Shown here one piece after another: positions 40,243 to 52,835 of a stretch of DNA of 64,000 nucleotides. Below the pieces are notes generated by a model that was given only the letters and a program-made list of their open reading frames with translations, made no database searches and was not told the DNA's origin. The position numbers were made by a program, and so were the translations under genes. Position 1 is the first letter of the stretch. Every line of letters begins with the position of its first letter. The DNA is from Anaeromassilibacillus senegalensis (GTDB lineage Bacteria; Bacillota; Clostridia; Oscillospirales; Acutalibacteraceae), in assembly GCF_021531715.1 (NCBI RefSeq), contig NZ_JAFBIT010000002.1, forward strand, positions 434,001 through 498,000. The letters are read 5' to 3'.

Positions 40243-41736
40243 TCAGTCGCTCTGCTTCCGCTCGACCACCTGCACGCGGCCGGTCGCCGTCGGGATCTGC
40301 GTCGTGTTGGACAGCTCGGGATTCATTTCGAGTTTCTTCATTGTCGGGATCGTGATGATCACCGTCGTGCCCATGCCCTCCTGGCTGTCGATGTCGAGCG
40401 AACCGGAATGCAGCTCCATGATCTCGTTCGCGACGGCGAGCCCAATGCCGTTGCCGCGCACGTTCTGGTTGGCCTTATAAAATTTCTTCTTGACGTTCGG
40501 CAGGTGCTCCGCGGGGATTCCGCAGCCGCTGTCCTTGATGATGACGCGGATAAAGCCGTCGTCCTCATATGCAGAGACGCGCACCGTGCCGCCGGGATTT
40601 GTGTACTTGAGCGCGTTGTCGAGTATGTTGATGAAAACCTGCCGCAGGCGGTTGACGTCGCCGAGAATCGGGGAAAGCATCGTATCGTCCTCGTCGTAGA
40701 TCAGCGTCTTGTGCTCGGTGCGCGCGCGGTCGGTGAACATATACACCGCCTCGTCCAGCTCGGCGAGCAGGTCGATCTTATTGAGAATCAGCCGCATGCG
40801 GCCGCTTTGGATGCGGGAGAAATCGAGCAGCTCCTCAACGATGCCGGACAGCCGCTCCGATTCGCGGATGATGACGCTCATGCCCTTTTCGTACGTTTCG
40901 CGCCCGATGCCGCCGCTCTGGATCGTCTCTGCCCAGCCCTTGATGGCCGTCAGAGGCGTGCGCAGCTCATGCGATACCGACGAAATAAAATCGTTTTTCA
41001 TCTTTTCCGCCGCGCCCAGCTCTGCCGCCATGTCGTTGATCGATTCGCACAGCGCGCCGATCTCGTCGTCCTTATCCTTTTTGACGCGCACCTCGAAATC
41101 GCCCTTCGCGATCTTCTCCGCCGTGGCATTCAGCTCGCGGATCGGCCCAACGATCGAGCGCACGAAATACATGCCGGAAAGCGTGACGAGCAGAATGATG
41201 AGCACGCCGACGCCGATCAGCGACAGGATGATGTATGTAATCTGCCGGTCGGTGCGCTCCATGGAAACGACGTAGCGCACCGCGCCGAGCACCGCGCCGT
41301 TTGTGCTGCGCACCACGCGCGAAATCGCCATAACCTTCTCGCCGGTTGAGATTTTGCCGATCCAGTAGCCGTAGCCGGAATCGTTGTGCAGCGCGCTCTC
41401 GAAATCCGGCATGGCCTGCGTCTGATCCGGCGCAAAGCCGGTGGAGGTGGACAGGATGCTGCCGGAACGGCTCACCGCCATAACCTCCATCAAATCCTTA
41501 TCCGGGAAATTCTCGGTGTAGCTGCGCGCGGCGGCATTGAACTCGCCGACGGTCTTCATGCCGTACGACAGCACGGTGGGCAGCTCGTCGCTGCGGCCCA
41601 CGAGCGTCATCTGGATGCCGTTGTACGCGTAGCTCTGCACGACGAAGGACAGCGCCGTGATGCACGCGGCAAGCAGCAGAATCATAACGCCGAGGCTGTT
41701 GATGAGCCAGCGGCGGGCAATACCTTTTCGGAACAC
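40243..41736 (-). CDS. Sensor histidine kinase
   Basis: 497 residues. Helix about 12-34, extracytoplasmic sensor about 35-165, second helix TYIILSLIGVGVLIILLVTLSG (about 167-188), HAMP (IVGPIRELNATAEKIAKGDFEVRVK, about 195-220), HisKA with phosphoacceptor in SSVSHELRTPLTAIKGWAE (His about 256), HATPase N-box FINILDNALKYTNPGG, G1 KDSGCGIPAEH, G2 GNGIGLAVA. GTG start with AAAGGGGGG eight bases upstream. Lies 37 bases after its response regulator and downstream of a beta-propeller lipoprotein that may serve as accessory sensor. Confidence 0.95.
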   Translation of the reverse strand: MFRKGIARRWLINSLGVMILLLAACITALSFVVQSYAYNGIQMTLVGRSDELPTVLSYGMKTVGEFNAAARSYTENFPDKDLMEVMAVSRSGSILSTSTGFAPDQTQAMPDFESALHNDSGYGYWIGKISTGEKVMAISRVVRSTNGAVLGAVRYVVSMERTDRQITYIILSLIGVGVLIILLVTLSGMYFVRSIVGPIRELNATAEKIAKGDFEVRVKKDKDDEIGALCESINDMAAELGAAEKMKNDFISSVSHELRTPLTAIKGWAETIQSGGIGRETYEKGMSVIIRESERLSGIVEELLDFSRIQSGRMRLILNKIDLLAELDEAVYMFTDRARTEHKTLIYDEDDTMLSPILGDVNRLRQVFINILDNALKYTNPGGTVRVSAYEDDGFIRVIIKDSGCGIPAEHLPNVKKKFYKANQNVRGNGIGLAVANEIMELHSGSLDIDSQEGMGTTVIITIPTMKKLEMNPELSNTTQIPTATGRVQVVERKQSD

Positions 41737-41773
41737 AGCGCGTCCCCCCTTTCCCGTTTTCTTTCCGTTTTGT

Positions 41774-42478
41774 TTATTCGTCCCAGCGGTAGCCGAGACC
41801 CCACACCGTCACGATGTGGCGCGGACTCGAGGGCTCGTCCTCGATCTTCATGCGCAGGCGGCGGATGTTGACATCCACGATCTTTTCCTCGCCGACATAG
41901 CCGCTGCCCCAGACATGCTTCAAAATATCAGCGCGCTTGAGCGCCTTGCCCGCGTTCGAGATAAAATACTCCATGATCTGGAACTCCACCTGTGTCAACT
42001 CCACCGGGCGGCCGTCCTTCGTGAAGGAACGGTTCCTGAGGTTCAACACAAAGCCGCCGGAGCGCAGCTCTTCAGAGAAATTCGGCTCGGCTGCGCGCGA
42101 ATACTGCGCCACGCGGCGGTATACCGCATCGACGCGCGCGACCAGCTCCGACGGGCTGAACGGCTTCGTCACGTAGTCGTCTGCGCCCATCATCAGGCCT
42201 GTCACCTTGTCCATCTCCTGTGTCTTTGCCGTCAGCAGGATGATACCGACCGTGCTGCTGACGCGCCGCAGCTCCCGACAGACCTCGAGGCCGTCGAGCA
42301 TGCCGGGCATCATGATATCGAGAATGACAACGTCAAAATCGCCGCCCGACAGGTCGTACAGGCGCAGCGCTTCCTCGCCGTTCGAGGCCTCCACCGCCTC
42401 ATACCCGGCGCGCTTCAGATTGATAACCACGAACTCGCGGATGTTCTGCTCGTCCTCGGCAACCAGAATTTTTCTCAT
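41774..42478 (-). CDS. OmpR/PhoB-family response regulator
   Basis: 234 residues. Receiver: MRKILVAEDEQNIREFVV (acidic pocket EDE), phosphoacceptor Asp in DVVILDIMMPG (about 54), Thr/Lys in ILLTAKT and DDYVTKPFSP (Lys about 108). Winged helix from about 135: ELTQVEFQIMEYFISNAGKAL and VDVNIRRLRMKIEDEPSSPRHI, ending WGLGYRWDE. Cognate of the kinase encoded next. The operon order lipoprotein-regulator-kinase suggests an envelope stimulus. Confidence 0.96.
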   Translation of the reverse strand: MRKILVAEDEQNIREFVVINLKRAGYEAVEASNGEEALRLYDLSGGDFDVVILDIMMPGMLDGLEVCRELRRVSSTVGIILLTAKTQEMDKVTGLMMGADDYVTKPFSPSELVARVDAVYRRVAQYSRAAEPNFSEELRSGGFVLNLRNRSFTKDGRPVELTQVEFQIMEYFISNAGKALKRADILKHVWGSGYVGEEKIVDVNIRRLRMKIEDEPSSPRHIVTVWGLGYRWDE

Positions 42479-46591: not shown

Positions 46592-46666
46592 AAATCATCT
46601 CCCTTTCCAAATGAATCGATCCCCCTCCGCCACGCTTCACACAGCCGACGGAGGGGGTAAACCGTT

Positions 46667-49600
46667 TTATTTCACCTTATTCTTAAACTTCGGCAGAATC
46701 ACGGCGGCGGCGATCCAGAACAGCTCGTAGATGCAGAGCGTGAACGTGGAAATCTGGCTGACGCCCGCGATGAAGGTCAGGAACGCGACGAGCACGAAGC
46801 CGATGACAACCGCGGCGTTCTGCATGGCGACGATGAAGCTGATGTTCTTCTTCTCGTCGATGCACGCGGAGACGATGCTCATCATCGATTCCACGCGGCC
46901 CTTCGTGGCGGCATACGCATCCGCGCGGCCGGTCGTACCGGTCACAAGGCGGTCGCACGCGCCGTCCGTCGAAGCGCCGATCACGTTGATCGCCGAAGCG
47001 TCGATGCCGAACAGCCGGGCGAGGAACTGCGGCGTGAGGTTCGCGTCCGTGGAGCGGACGAGCAGCGAGACGCCGTTCATCTCCAGCTCCTGAATCTCGG
47101 CCTTCTTCTTGCGGTCGGCGTTGTACGTCAGGATGAACATCGCGCAGAGCACGCCGTCTGCCGCAACGTAAAGGATCTGGCGATTGCCGGTCGTATACTT
47201 GCTTTCGAGCGACTGCTCGGGCGCTTCGATGTTGTGCGCCTTGAGCAGCGTACGCGAGCCGATGAGGATTTCGCGGCCGTCCACGACGCCCACGACGCCG
47301 CCTCCGGCCTCATAGTGCGCCTTCTCAACCTCGGGCAGCTCGCCCTCGTGCTCGCTGAAGACCTGCTCGAACACGCCGCAGAGCGGGCCGCCGAGCGCCT
47401 GCATCAGCGTTCCGGCCGCGAGCACCGCGTCCTCGAGGCCCTCCTCGACGAACGGCTTTACGCCGTTCAGAACGACGGTGCCGCGCGGGAAGAGGTCTGC
47501 GGAATCGACGAGCACGGCATTGGCCGCGCTCATGCGCTTGATGCCCTCATAGCCCGAGACCATCGCGCCCGACCGGCGCAGACGGTGGCTCAGGCGGCTG
47601 ACCGGCAGATTCACGGCCAGCATATTCGTCATGGCGACGCATACGCAGCAGGAAGCCGCAAGCGCCGTGATCGCGAGCGCGGCGTCCTTCGTGATAATCA
47701 GTGCGACGACGCACAGGAGCAGAGACGAGACAAGCCCGACCGGCGCGAGCGCCTGCGAAGCAGTCTCCGCCGGATCCGGCTCATAGGAGATCTGCAGGAA
47801 ACGCTTTAAGAAGCCGGTCTTCTGCTGGTAGGCGATCGCCGGCTGGGAAACAACCGAGGAACCCGCGAGCTTCAAAGACGTGTTGTAGTCGTCAAAAATG
47901 CGCACCGCGTACTTCTGCTCGCGCGAGGCGACGAAGCGGAAATTCGAGTGGATGCGGCGCACCATCGTCAGCTTGCCGAGCGTATTCAGGAACAGGATAC
48001 CCGCGGCAATGCCGGCATACAGGTGGATTTTTCCGGTTGCGAGCAAATCGGAGAAGAACAGCGTGCAAATGGTCTGCACCAGCACGGCGACCGAAGCCAC
48101 CGCCGCGGCGCTGTCGGAATTTGCGCGGAACTCGATGAGGGCGCGCAGGCCGTTCAGAATTGTCTTGGCACAGAAGCCGATGGCGACCAGAAGGAAGATC
48201 AGCGAAACAATCGTGTAGCCGATCGCGCTGCCCGCCACGGTGTTGTCCGGGCCGAAGCCCGCTTCGCCGATCAGCGACGCGAGAATCAGGACGCCCGCGC
48301 TTACGCCGGTCGCGAGCATGCGGATCGTCAGCTCGCGCATCGTGGCGCGCAGGTCGTGCGAGACGCTCTTGGCGTCTGCGGGGCCGGTGTAATCGTCGAT
48401 CAGCTCGTCCTCATTCTCCGGCTCCTCCGTCGTTTCGGGCGCTTCCCCGCGCTCCGGGTCATCGCCGAAGCGGATCTTCAGGCGGCGCACGCCGGCCGCG
48501 GCGCTCGTGTTGCTGTCCTCGGAATAAATGCGCGCTTCGCTGAGCAGCGCGCTCTGAAGCACGTCCGCGTTGATGATATGCACCGGCAGATCGCGCTTTC
48601 TGTACTGAGTGACGTCTGTGACCGGTGTGGAGATCCGGGCCGGCACTTCTTCCGGCGCAGGCGCTTCTGTCTTTGTCTCTTCTTCGGGCCGCTCCTGTTC
48701 AGCTTTAGGCGCTTCCGGCTCTTTGACTTCCGTTTCGGGTTTTTCCTCTTCGGAGAAGCTCGAGACGTCCGTAAATTCCCGCACGGGCGCGGTCTTCGGC
48801 TTCTGCGGCACGATGTGCACGGACGGGACTTCCACCGGCTCCTCCGCGGCCGGTTCCTGCGCCGCAGGCTTATCCTGCACGGTTTCCAGGATGCGGCGCA
48901 CCGAGTCCTCGCTGACCTCCGGCACAACCTTTGCCTGCTGCACGCCGAACGTCTCGTTTTCGAGGTCGAGCTTGATCTCCATCGTGCGCGTCTGCGCGTC
49001 CTGCAGCATGGCCTTCTGGAAGCCCGGCAGATTATCGCCGTCTGCATCCTTCTCAATATCGATGCCGTGCTGCTTCGCGTACGGATCACCCGCAAAGGCC
49101 GAAACCGGCACCGGTGCGACGATGCCCAGTTCGTTTTCAACCTCGTCGATATCGACGCCCGCGTTTTCGACCGCCTCGGCCACACGGCGGCGGCGCTCCT
49201 TCTGCAGGCGGTCAAAGTTCTTCGCAACCTCGTCGTCCAGCTCCGCGGTGTTCTCATCGAACAGCTTCTTGAAGCCCTCGGCCTGAAGCGAGATCTCGCC
49301 CGTGGCGTCGAAGCCGCGCGTATATTCGTCAATCGGCTTCAACTGGATGCCGTAGTACATGTCCTCGGCCGCGTCGAAGTCGTCCTTCTGTTTCTTCTCT
49401 TTCCGGCGCGCAAAGAAGCCGCGCTTTTCCTTTTTCTCTTTTCTGCCGCGTTTCGGCTCCTCCTCGCGCTCAGCTTCGGTGTAATGCTCTTCGACGGTCT
49501 CCACCGGCACCGGCTCGGCTTCCAGCTTCAGATCCGGCAGTTCCTCCGTTTCGGTGGAAATGCGCGGTTTGCCCGCCGGAGTCGGCACGTATTCCGTTTC

Positions 49601-49681
49601 GGCCCCGTCCTCTGCGCCCATCTTGGCGCGGCGCTCCGCCTCCAGAATCTCCTCCAGTGAAAATCTGTTGTCTGCGCTCAT
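46667..49681 (-). CDS. P-type ATPase-like membrane protein lacking the catalytic motif, with long disordered N-terminus
   Basis: 1004 residues. Residues 1 to about 445 are cytoplasmic, highly charged and Pro/Glu/Lys rich (KRGRKEKKEKRGFFARRKEKK; many VPEVSEDS-like stretches). Then about four helices (LATGVSAGVLILASLIG, IGYTIVSLIFLLVAIGFC, VASVAVLVQTICTLFF, LYAGIAAGILFLNTLG), a soluble part, two more helices, and a region aligned by pattern to a P1B-ATPase: where DKTGTLT is expected there is VLVDSADLFPRGTV (about 720-733). The N domain is kept (GGGVVGVVDGREILIGSRTLL, about 790-810; GNRQILYVAADG), but TGDN is replaced by VRSTDAN and GDGxND is absent. Two C-terminal helices close it. ATG 49681, downstream of rlmB. 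Probably a non-pumping scaffold or regulator. Confidence 0.8.
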   Translation of the reverse strand: MSADNRFSLEEILEAERRAKMGAEDGAETEYVPTPAGKPRISTETEELPDLKLEAEPVPVETVEEHYTEAEREEEPKRGRKEKKEKRGFFARRKEKKQKDDFDAAEDMYYGIQLKPIDEYTRGFDATGEISLQAEGFKKLFDENTAELDDEVAKNFDRLQKERRRRVAEAVENAGVDIDEVENELGIVAPVPVSAFAGDPYAKQHGIDIEKDADGDNLPGFQKAMLQDAQTRTMEIKLDLENETFGVQQAKVVPEVSEDSVRRILETVQDKPAAQEPAAEEPVEVPSVHIVPQKPKTAPVREFTDVSSFSEEEKPETEVKEPEAPKAEQERPEEETKTEAPAPEEVPARISTPVTDVTQYRKRDLPVHIINADVLQSALLSEARIYSEDSNTSAAAGVRRLKIRFGDDPERGEAPETTEEPENEDELIDDYTGPADAKSVSHDLRATMRELTIRMLATGVSAGVLILASLIGEAGFGPDNTVAGSAIGYTIVSLIFLLVAIGFCAKTILNGLRALIEFRANSDSAAAVASVAVLVQTICTLFFSDLLATGKIHLYAGIAAGILFLNTLGKLTMVRRIHSNFRFVASREQKYAVRIFDDYNTSLKLAGSSVVSQPAIAYQQKTGFLKRFLQISYEPDPAETASQALAPVGLVSSLLLCVVALIITKDAALAITALAASCCVCVAMTNMLAVNLPVSRLSHRLRRSGAMVSGYEGIKRMSAANAVLVDSADLFPRGTVVLNGVKPFVEEGLEDAVLAAGTLMQALGGPLCGVFEQVFSEHEGELPEVEKAHYEAGGGVVGVVDGREILIGSRTLLKAHNIEAPEQSLESKYTTGNRQILYVAADGVLCAMFILTYNADRKKKAEIQELEMNGVSLLVRSTDANLTPQFLARLFGIDASAINVIGASTDGACDRLVTGTTGRADAYAATKGRVESMMSIVSACIDEKKNISFIVAMQNAAVVIGFVLVAFLTFIAGVSQISTFTLCIYELFWIAAAVILPKFKNKVK

Positions 49682-49732: not shown

Positions 49733-50503
49733 TTATGCTTTTCCGTTTTTCGCCGGGATGCCTGCCCGCTGCCGCGCGATTTCATAGCAAAGAATGCCGC
49801 AGGCAACCGAGGCGTTCAGCGAATTGATTTTCCCCTTCATCGGCAGGGAAACGATAAAATCGGATTTCTCCTTTACAAGGCGCGAGACGCCGAAGCCCTC
49901 CGAGCCGACAACGAGCGCCGCCGGGCCGCTGAAATCGGTCTGGCACCAGTCGGCGCCGTCCATATCCGCCGTATAGACCCACACGCCGCGCGCCTTGATC
50001 TCATCGAGAAACGCGGCGATGTTCGGCACGCGCGCGACCGGCAGATACTCCACCGCGCCCGCCGAGGCCTTGCCGACCGCGGCCGTCAGCCCGACGCTGC
50101 GGCGCTTCGGAATCACGACGCCGTGCGCGCCCGCGCATTCTGCCGTGCGGAGGATCGCGCCGAGGTTATGCGGATCCGCGATCTCGTCGCAGACGATGAT
50201 AAACGGCGCTTCACCGCGGCTTTCGGCCAACGCGAAGATGTCCTCGACCTCGGAGAAAGCATGCACCGCCGCCACCGCCGCGACGCCCTGGTGGTTTGCG
50301 CCGCCGCACATGGCGTCCAGCTTTTTCGGATCGGCTTCCTTCACCGTGACGCCCGCCTGCTTCGCCATGCGGAGAATCGCGCTGATCGAGCCGGTCTTAT
50401 CGCCGCGCCGCACATAGAGGCTGTCGATCGGCCTGCCCGCGCGCAGGGCCTCCGTGACGGCGTTGCGGCCCGCGATGACATCTTTTTCTCTTTCGTTTTC
50501 CAT
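49733..50503 (-). CDS. rlmB: 23S rRNA (guanosine-2'-O)-methyltransferase RlmB (TrmH family)
   Basis: 256 residues, SPOUT methyltransferase. N-terminal substrate-binding domain (DVIAGRNAVTEALRAGRPID), then the knot motifs: DEIADPHNLGAILRTAECAGAHG (about 106-128), LVVGSEGFGVSRLVKEKSDF (about 195-214), VSLPMKGKINSLNASVACGI (about 216-235). ATG 50503 follows AAAGGGAAAAAGG. Promoter predicted at 50566-50595. The P-type-ATPase-like gene follows by about 50 bases on the same strand. Confidence 0.93.
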   Translation of the reverse strand: MENEREKDVIAGRNAVTEALRAGRPIDSLYVRRGDKTGSISAILRMAKQAGVTVKEADPKKLDAMCGGANHQGVAAVAAVHAFSEVEDIFALAESRGEAPFIIVCDEIADPHNLGAILRTAECAGAHGVVIPKRRSVGLTAAVGKASAGAVEYLPVARVPNIAAFLDEIKARGVWVYTADMDGADWCQTDFSGPAALVVGSEGFGVSRLVKEKSDFIVSLPMKGKINSLNASVACGILCYEIARQRAGIPAKNGKA

Positions 50504-50792
50504 GAAGATGACCTTTTTCCCTTTCCGAAACGCGCCTTTTGCGCATACTTTCGCAATATAAGCTGATTATAGCATATTTCGGCCCCATATTGCAACTCAT
50601 CCGCGGAATTTGATGACTTTTCCGCCGGACAAAAATCGCCCGGCTTCGCCGCAAATTTGCTTTTTCAGGTTGAGTTCGCATAAATATGCATCATTTGTGT
50701 ATTTTTCTCCGATGGACGGCACTATACGCTCTGTAATACGGTGTAGGACGCGCCGGTTGACATAACGGCTGTTCAAAGTTTTCCCAGCCGGC

Positions 50793-51297: not shown

Positions 51298-52008
51298 ATG
51301 CGTGAAGATATTTGCTCGATCCCGATCAGTGAAATTTTTGAGCCGAAGGACGGCTGCCCGTTCTGCCGGATGCGCGACATGCTGGAGGACCGCATGGCGA
51401 CGTACATCACCGGCGCGGCGATGATGGAGCCGGACGTGCGCGTGGAAACGAACCGCCTCGGCTTCTGCAAGGACCACTTTGAGATGATTCTGCAGCGCGG
51501 CAGCCGCCTCTCCGTGGCGCTGATCCTCGAGAGCCTGCTCGCGGAGATCGGAACCGATATTTTCCCGGACGAGCCGAAAACGCCGCTTAAAAAGGTACTC
51601 GCCGCCGCGGACCGCCGCCGGCACTCCTGCTTTGTCTGCGAAAACGTGAACAAAAACATGGAACATCTAAGCGCGACGGTCATCAAGCTCTGGCAGAACG
51701 AGCCGGAGTTCCGCGCGCTGTACGCTGACCAGACGCACATCTGCCTCGACCATTACAGCTTCATTTTAAGCGCCGCGCAAAAGATGCCGAAGAAGAATTT
51801 CATCCCGTTCGCGGCGGAGACGAAGCGCCTTGCGAAGAACTATCTCGACACCGTGAAGGCCGACACGACGCATTTCTGCCGGATGTTTGACTACCGCAAC
51901 AAGGACGGCGACTGGGGCAACTCGCGCGACGCGATCGAGCGCTCCATCACGTACATCACGGGGCGCGTGCCGAGCGTGACGACGAAAACCGAGGGCAAGA
52001 ACCGGTGA
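51298..52008 (+). CDS. DUF6062 family protein
   Basis: 236 residues. Two similar metal-binding modules: GCPFCRMRDMLEDR with GFCKDHFEMIL (about 17-64), and SCFVCENVNKNM with HICLDHYSFIL (about 112-160). Each gives CxxC plus CxxH, so two zinc or Fe-S sites are likely. Otherwise helical. ATG 51298 follows GAAAGGATG. Widespread in gut Clostridia; function unknown. The OGG-type glycosylase gene overlaps its stop (GTGA), linking the two. Confidence 0.88.
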   Translation: MREDICSIPISEIFEPKDGCPFCRMRDMLEDRMATYITGAAMMEPDVRVETNRLGFCKDHFEMILQRGSRLSVALILESLLAEIGTDIFPDEPKTPLKKVLAAADRRRHSCFVCENVNKNMEHLSATVIKLWQNEPEFRALYADQTHICLDHYSFILSAAQKMPKKNFIPFAAETKRLAKNYLDTVKADTTHFCRMFDYRNKDGDWGNSRDAIERSITYITGRVPSVTTKTEGKNR

Positions 52009-52835
52009 TCCGCTTCACCCCGCCCGACGGCTCGCTCGACCTTGCCCAGACGCTCGACTGCGGGCAGGCGTTCCGATGGCGTCCCGTTTTACGCCCGAAC
52101 AGCGTTGATGCGTGGCGCGGCGTCGCGTTTTCCCGCGTGCTCGAAGTCTGGACGGACGGGGACACGCTGTGCCTCGACTGCACGCAGGCAGAATTTGACG
52201 AAATCTGGTTCTCCTATTTTGATTTTCAGACCGACTATGCCGAAATGCGCGCGTCGCTCGCCGGGCTACACCCCGTTTTGCGCGACGCGGTGCGGTTTGC
52301 ACCAGGTATCCGCGTCCTGCGGCAGGAGCCGTGGGAGGCGCTGTGCGCGTTTATTATCTCCCAGAACAACAACATTCCGCGCATCAAGGGCATTCTGGAG
52401 CGCCTGTGCATGCTGCTCGGTGAGCCGATTGCCGCGAACGGCGAAACGCTTTATGCCTTTCCCACCGCCGAGCGCCTTGCCGCCTGCACCTTAGAGACAC
52501 TGCAGCCGCTGCGCGCGGGCTTTCGCGCCAAATATCTGCTCGACGCCGCCCGCCGCGTCTCAAGCGGTGAAATTGACCTCGAAGCCGTGCGCCGCATGCC
52601 GGTTTGCGACGCGCGCGCCGTTTTGCAGACGATTCTCGGCGTCGGGCCGAAGGTCGCCGACTGCGCGCTGCTCTACGGCCTGCACCGCACCGAATGCTTT
52701 CCGATGGATGTCTGGATGAAGCGCGCCATGACGCTGCTGCCCGGCGTCACGCCCGAAGCGCTCGGCGACGCCGCCGGTATCGCCCAACAGTACATTTTCC
52801 ACTATGCCCGCCTCCATCCGGAGCTGTTCGGGTGA
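52005..52835 (+). CDS. 8-oxoguanine DNA glycosylase (OGG1 type)
   Basis: 276 residues. Bifunctional glycosylase/lyase of the HhH-GPD superfamily, removing oxidised guanine. N-terminal beta domain (LDLAQTLDCGQAFRWRPV), helical core (EPWEALCAFIISQNNNIPRIKGILERLC, about 108-135), HhH hairpin TILGVGPKVADCALLYG (about 208-224) with the expected catalytic Lys in GPK and Asp in FPMDVWMKRAM (about 235). GTG start inside the DUF6062 stop. Ends one base before the stop of the convergent TetR gene. Confidence 0.93.
   Translation: MIRFTPPDGSLDLAQTLDCGQAFRWRPVLRPNSVDAWRGVAFSRVLEVWTDGDTLCLDCTQAEFDEIWFSYFDFQTDYAEMRASLAGLHPVLRDAVRFAPGIRVLRQEPWEALCAFIISQNNNIPRIKGILERLCMLLGEPIAANGETLYAFPTAERLAACTLETLQPLRAGFRAKYLLDAARRVSSGEIDLEAVRRMPVCDARAVLQTILGVGPKVADCALLYGLHRTECFPMDVWMKRAMTLLPGVTPEALGDAAGIAQQYIFHYARLHPELFG

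Follow-up and report, generated by a model that had tools for sequence, protein, structure and literature searches.

What remains for a P-type ATPase to do once the residues needed for pumping have gone? Textbooks present P-type ATPases as pumps with catalytic motifs that barely change, and the question is raised by a gene on a 64,000-nucleotide stretch of contig NZ_JAFBIT010000002.1 of Anaeromassilibacillus senegalensis (assembly GCF_021531715.1, positions 434,001 to 498,000; the window hereafter, with positions counted from its first letter). By homology, this gene (46667..49681, minus strand) encodes a pseudo-P1B-ATPase of 1004 amino acids, with an ATG start at 49681, a TAA stop at 46669-46667 and no internal stop codon in the frame. 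An initial annotation, made from the letters of the window, had described a P1B-like ATPase with altered catalytic motifs that had become a membrane scaffold or nucleotide sensor. The observation was confirmed and this interpretation partly supported. The gene product is tentatively read here as an order-specific P1B pseudo-pump working as a non-pumping membrane scaffold, a reading to which we give slightly less than an even chance, the scaffold itself being what we infer from the findings below.

Similarity to pumps was found in the core of the protein, residues 440-1004 (565 residues; 46670..48364, minus strand), which comprises eight predicted membrane helices, a shortened A-like segment and a P/N-like head. 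The search with hidden Markov models proposed in the initial annotation gave a divided result: the core matched the NCBIfam models for CopA (E 3e-12) and for heavy-metal ATPases (ATPase-IB, E 7.3e-12), but the best E-value from a Pfam search of the full protein was only 0.15. Both NCBIfam matches lie far below the curated cut-offs, the score to TIGR01525 being 44.9 bits with a cut-off of 346.25, and no HMA metal-binding domain was found by Pfam or NCBIfam. A sequence match to LpCopA (3rfu) was identified at 9.5e-13, spanning residues 638-897. The window's own genome encodes two canonical P1B pumps scoring above the family cut-off, and profile comparison of the core with each of these returned an E-value of 5.6e-10 for CopA (core columns 12-474, 450 columns) and of 6.2e-7 for the zinc-type pump, the latter match extending to the last helices. 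Judged by sequence, the core is homologous to copper-type P1B-ATPases beyond what chance would give.

The AlphaFold2 model of the core, built with a 50-sequence alignment, had a mean predicted local distance difference test score (pLDDT) of 88.1 and a predicted template modelling score of 0.81. The LpCopA E2P structure was ranked first by Foldseek (E 2.9e-18), and VIA-align placed 494 of 565 residues on LpCopA 3rfu with a Z-score of 24.1 and a root-mean-square deviation (rmsd) of 8.8, a value that probably reflects differently posed domains. The N-like domain of the model was found to be closer to its counterpart, the N domain of CopA (2voy_J), with an rmsd of 2.2 over 115 residues. Reading of the secondary structure of the model gave eight membrane helices in a P1B-like layout and an A-domain part cut down to two strands and short helices. 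The predicted fold of the core is that of the P1B fold superfamily, and not a structure unrelated to P-type ATPases, as might have been seen had the initial annotation been mistaken.

The motif changes noted initially were borne out, with VDSADLF standing for DKTGTLT and RSTDAN for TGDN, and with GDGxND missing from the window copy; approximately 30 residues of the GDGxND region are absent in the alignment to the zinc-type pump of the genome. Motifs were counted in 46 orthologues from distinct genomes (the window, 40 fetched regions and five further loci), of which none carried DKTG and, likewise, none carried GDG.ND, so that a normal DKTG was not encountered in this set. As a positive control, both canonical P1B pumps of the same genome were found to carry DKTG, GDG.ND and all of the looser patterns scored. 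No TGE of the A domain is present in the window core, and the tripeptide occurs somewhere in the core of 5 of the 46 (not located singly). Similar stray matches were seen for the tripeptide TGD (3/46), for a loose [CS]P[CH] or CPx pattern (5/46) and for S.HP (2/46), and the numbers of all four are as chance would give. The CPC/CPx metal site of membrane helix M4 is gone in the window, where CVCVAMTN is found, while relatives mostly have a proline without flanking cysteines. Going by these residues, the window copy fails the functional P1B signatures tested (DKTGT, GDGxND, TGE, CPC/CPx, SEHP and the curated score), and loss of pumping is strongly indicated by the motif losses.

The further claim that no phosphoenzyme can form stood in part, as the Lys, Thr and Gly of motif I, the Lys of motif III and GDGxND are lost, but the Asp of motif I is kept. 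Alignments place VDSADLF on this residue, so that D726 (47504..47506, minus strand) occupies the position of the phosphorylated Asp of DKTGT. Two sets of near orthologues have Asp here in 27 of 29 and in 46 of 50 sequences, the near-relative pattern being D-A-x-[DE]-L-F, as against 9 of 24 distant sequences; the other 15 distant sequences have S, R, N, A, P or T. The two near sets overlap, that of 50 combining the window with 49 loci out of the 53 named ones, while the distant set holds 23 sequences from other families and one from the window's family (L114), includes the near-identical L105 and L110, and leaves out L093. Loss of the Asp, which the initial annotation had proposed to look for among orthologues, is therefore not fixed in the near group, although the N-domain glycines that it expected to stay are conserved; catalysis is evidently not the trait that has been conserved. 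With GDGxND, the motif-III Lys and, from DKTGT, the Lys and Thr all missing from the aligned sequences, a normal phosphoenzyme cycle is probably impossible.

An alternative is that new chemistry of the HAD type takes place at a remodelled site formed by D726/D727, D729 and D879. Acidic residues do stay common in an altered register, with Asp one position later (727) in 16 of the 24 distant sequences and Asp or Glu at 729 in 19, and D879 (47045..47047, minus strand), at the position of the Asp of TGD, is Asp in 29/29, 49/50 and 24/24 sequences of the three sets. The HAD motif III Lys and the motif IV acidic pair are, however, absent in the aligned sequences, and the 15 distant sequences without Asp at 726 also argue against this proposal, which we consider quite improbable.

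A ligand-sensing pseudoenzyme is the main rival explanation, because G795 and G808, the glycine turns of the P1B nucleotide pocket in the N domain, never change in the sets examined (29/29, 50/50 and 24/24). The N-like domain would bind a nucleotide or small molecule without hydrolysis, and the bound state would alter the arm or the membrane part. The near-invariance of D879 and the closeness of the N-like domain to solved ones are consistent with such a role. The Glu and His of P1B N domains reportedly hold ATP, and work on ATP7B is said to have found them critical for ATP binding; in this family Gly takes the place of the HP-motif His in 47 of 50 near orthologues (GGPL for EHPL in the window), and the Glu position is Met or another residue. 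These replacements argue against ATP itself as the ligand and weaken the nucleotide sensor of the initial annotation, of which the invariant glycine turns are the part that stood. The glycines may also be kept for the fold only, and ligand sensing is regarded as possible but doubtful.

The membrane part suggests another alternative, namely a passive carrier or channel in which the ATPase was lost and the membrane path is reused without ATP. All eight helices are kept, as are a proline that most relatives have at the M4 kink, the Asn691/Pro693 region and, in all 50 near orthologues, Q954, which lies close to where the M5 metal-site residue would be. Against this, the window no longer has the CPC site and distant sequences differ at polar positions of the membrane part (Q954 in 5/24, D523 in 14/24), leaving a carrier or channel improbable.

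When 300 genomes from the window's family were searched with the core, the pseudo-pump was found at E<=1e-20 in 273, covering 125 of 135 genera, and as a single copy except in G105 and G268, the listed genomes that gave two matches each. Across the order, which from the names of the relatives we take to be Oscillospirales in GTDB, a profile search matched 275 of 295 genomes at 1e-15. Matches at this level were rejected as evidence of membership: the true CopA of the genome scores 3.4e-21, and the 275 may include real pumps. A threshold of 1e-30 was used because a true CopA can reach approximately 3e-21 against the family profile, and 250 of the 295 genomes remained (275 less 25 weaker). Two weak members, L112 and L115, carry neither DKTG nor GDG.ND. 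At 1e-30, matches were found in 3 of 299 genomes drawn from the phylum and 9 of 245 drawn from the class, all of them inside the order; clear members outside the order numbered 0 of 296 and 0 of 236, respectively, where the listed non-matching genomes lie outside the order, a further 276 and 216 were taken as outside from the kinship ordering, and the two draws overlap. The 53 named loci include members of Anaeromassilibacillus, Caproiciproducens, Faecalispora and Acutalibacter as well as Clostridium sporosphaeroides and Anaerotruncus colihominis, the nearest in the core being UBA1417 (85%) and Oscillospiraceae bacterium MH27-2 (82%).

The ratio of nonsynonymous to synonymous substitution (dN/dS) against the two nearest relatives was 0.11-0.12 in the core and 0.17-0.19 in the N-terminal arm that precedes it; the ratios are rough, as dS was 0.8-1.9 and so near saturation, and the arm boundary of a third pair is approximate. 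These values indicate purifying selection on the pseudo-pump, in agreement with the earlier statement that it is under selection rather than decaying. A decaying copy is ruled out by the core value of about 0.12, and a lone mutant or sequencing error by the 273 family genomes. The idea that the gene encodes an ordinary active pump, or is a decaying lone copy, has the homology to CopA in its favour; with DKTG and GDG.ND absent in all 46 orthologues and dN/dS at about 0.12, it is hardly credible and is refuted as far as sequence allows.

The gene lies directly downstream of rlmB (49733..50503, minus strand), encoding the 23S rRNA Gm2251 methyltransferase, with a gap of 51 nucleotides (TIGR00186, 243.9 bits, cut-off 160.15; 188.4 bits to a second RlmB model, NF008386, below its cut-off of 366). 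The initial annotation had remarked that the two genes share a direction, and the link was found to be far stronger than this: in all 41 sampled genomes (41/41), which come from 15 families, a homologue of rlmB precedes the gene on the same strand, within 133 nucleotides in 40 of these. L093 has the pseudo-pump frame in two pieces, the presumed first of which follows rlmB. In the named set, rlmB is upstream on the same strand at 52 of 53 loci and within approximately 215 nucleotides at 51; L129 stops at the contig edge, and at L119 the gap is approximately 1 kb as the open frame starts late. Although rlmB is upstream in them, L093, L096 and L119 fail the adjacency rule (frame split, over-extended or late start). 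The gap in the window holds a Shine-Dalgarno-like AGGAAAG, and a terminator scan found none in these 51 nucleotides. Gene spacing suggests that rlmB and the pseudo-pump are a conserved unit, probably an operon that is co-transcribed.

This position bears on a further alternative, that the protein is a partner that regulates the canonical P1B pumps, perhaps by pairing with CopA. Regulation of an active relative is a common role of pseudoenzymes, and both canonical pumps noted above share the genome with the pseudo-pump. In the 41 sampled genomes, though, the gene adjoins rlmB and not metal genes, and by reading of those loci no metal-gene cluster recurs in at least five of them; P1B pumps are also mostly described as monomers. 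Such a partnership is very unlikely.

The N-terminal arm (residues 1-439; 48365..49681, minus strand) is acidic, with a net charge of -47, and contains neither Cys nor Trp. It had been described as a disordered arm of 445 residues. A long and mostly disordered arm was upheld, but it measures approximately 439 residues and includes predicted helices at 9-21 and 146-173. In the full-length AlphaFold2 model, 333 residues have a pLDDT below 50, and every such segment of at least three residues lies within the arm, which suggests disorder while falling short of proof; the arm is not featureless, because the two helices attain a pLDDT of approximately 72-74. A candidate docking motif, FSLEEILEAE (residues 7-16; 49634..49663, minus strand), is situated within the first helix, and its I12 and L13 do not vary among 24 full-length sequences, a set chosen mostly for showing the motif. 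A second motif, around YYGIQLKPIDEY (residues 109-121; 49319..49357, minus strand), follows a YYGLQLKP-like pattern found in 24 of 53 named orthologues and in 0 of 30 more distant ones.

The patterns for these motifs were composed after the sequences had been inspected. The N-terminal pattern [FY]S[LV][DE][DE]IL-x-E was identified in 23 of 40 sampled sequences, and in 26 of 43 after three were added, as compared to 0.7 in shuffles of the 43; this set combines the window with the fetched regions other than L093 (39 of 40) and with L112, L113 and L115, added as known carriers of the motif, with L111 and L114 not counted. FSLEEILEAE of the window narrowly misses this stricter pattern, and of the 53 named orthologues, 42 show a looser form among their first 70 residues. 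When a DNA form of the pattern was searched in ten genomes, seven of nine sites were within the pseudo-pump gene, the remaining two being one orthologous pair resembling a surface protein, and the control gave 0. Of 14 matches in the 825 kb of fetched loci, 13 were in the pseudo-pump (one being, by assignment, the first piece of the split L093 copy), and the reversed and permuted controls gave 0. The N-terminal pattern is nearly private to the pseudo-pump gene. Arm length ranges from absent (L091, 548 amino acids in total) to more than 1000 residues (L044, 1652 amino acids in total). Family f10, represented by L091 and short open frames, has a protein of approximately 550 residues with no arm and keeps the core and the adjacent rlmB, and this armless family indicates that the core matters on its own.

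For the membrane scaffold favoured here, the following origin and mode of action may be envisaged. A copper pump of the P1B (CopA-like) type would have been the ancestor, early in Oscillospirales, and would have lost phosphorylation, the handling of Mg and ATP and the metal-thiolate site to become a single-copy membrane pseudoenzyme directly behind rlmB. The eight membrane helices would serve as an anchor and the pseudo-P/N head as a conserved binding surface, with the disordered cytoplasmic arm docking a soluble partner through short helices, chiefly that of the N-terminal motif. Ribosome maturation or translation at the membrane could be the purpose, or supply the partner, as hinted by the link to rlmB. 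The scaffolding, the docking role of the motif and the connection to ribosomes are conjecture. A more specific version, that the pseudo-pump tethers or senses the translation machinery at the membrane and that its arm captures a soluble protein through the N-terminal helix, possibly a CheY-like receiver or RlmB, is regarded as unlikely.

Several points weigh against a scaffold of this kind. The soluble partner of the arm is hypothetical and docking by the arm conjectural, and arm docking cannot be the whole function because family f10 does without the arm. The stricter motif pattern fails in 17 of 43 sequences, and three of the ten genomes searched with its DNA form have no motif site, the window being among the exceptions in both cases. 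Shared expression alone may account for the gene order with rlmB. Not every genome carries the gene: no match was obtained in 27 of the 300 from the family or in 20 of the 295 from the order, and some of these assemblies are near-complete. Residues of the membrane part conserved among near relatives, such as Q954, are not obviously needed by a pure scaffold.

Comparison to copper P1B-ATPases (CopA, LpCopA 3rfu/4bbj and ATP7B) shows that the predicted fold, the eight-helix layout, the N-domain glycine turns and the Asp of TGD are shared. The differences are that DKTGT, TGE, CPC, HP, the motif-III Lys and GDGxND are missing from the window copy, that its A-like segment is shortened and that no HMA domain was found. 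The nearest precedent among the papers listed is human TMEM94 (ERMA), which has a P-type-like architecture and whose status as a working pump has been disputed on structural grounds (PMC12134183), while a 2026 paper argues that it moves magnesium (PMC13322241). TMEM94 differs in being eukaryotic, in having ten membrane helices and in resembling SPCA most closely, and not the P1B pumps. A P-type fold is also part of a signalling protein in apicomplexan guanylate cyclases, which carry P4-ATPase-like domains (PMC6592433 and others); these differ in the cyclase fusion and the P4 type, and the title of PMC7858053 states that the activity of the ATPase domain is essential. The N-terminal EIDALL peptide of FliM/FliY, which binds CheY-P (PMC9126983), resembles the arm motif in being short and N-terminal. 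In L048 and L049, arm residues ~24-40 include WSIDEIDALL and WSMEEIDALL, respectively. EID.LL was found in the arms of only these two among the 43 and 53 sequences, and is absent from the window; most motif-bearing orthologues have DEIL-x-E instead. The likeness is one of resemblance, flagellar genes not having been searched for, and with two sequences it is only a lead.

If the version involving the translation machinery is true, this would be, as far as the literature search reached, the first P-type pseudo-pump in bacteria to be linked to signalling or to ribosomes; among the matches listed, no title or abstract opening described a bacterial P-type pseudo-ATPase or this family. A single-copy, order-wide family that keeps the fold without the catalytic and metal motifs suggests reuse of the fold in bacteria, and the tight link to rlmB provides a direct handle on a gene that most genomes sampled from a common gut order carry and for which no described function was found. 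Automatic annotation probably mislabels such genes as copper exporters.

Further features were identified around the two genes. A promoter-like TTGCAA-18-TATAAT upstream of rlmB (50566..50595, minus strand) is a candidate operon promoter, though a weak one, as the region has 3 such sites and shuffles give 1.3. Just past the stop codon of the pseudo-pump, a 9-bp perfect inverted repeat without a T run (46621..46657, minus strand), read directly and not reported by the terminator scan, possibly marks the operon end. At 18 of 86 loci the pseudo-pump is followed, on its own strand, by a gene for an EF-G-like protein, so that rlmB, pseudo-pump and EF-G stand in a row; this tally leaves out the short-flank duplicates L052-L081, and the collections overlap, so that the genomes are fewer than the loci. 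The copy at L047:11132-13276 scores 885.3 bits to NF009381 (cut-off 583) but does not reach the cut-off of TIGR00484, the EF-G equivalog. At 51298-52835 of the window, a gene for a DUF6062 protein stands beside one for an OGG-type DNA glycosylase, and these recur near rlmB in 8 and 13 loci, respectively. Downstream of the pseudo-pump, at 40246-42478, genes for a histidine kinase and a response regulator were identified, and these are also present at L032, L033, L102 and L105.

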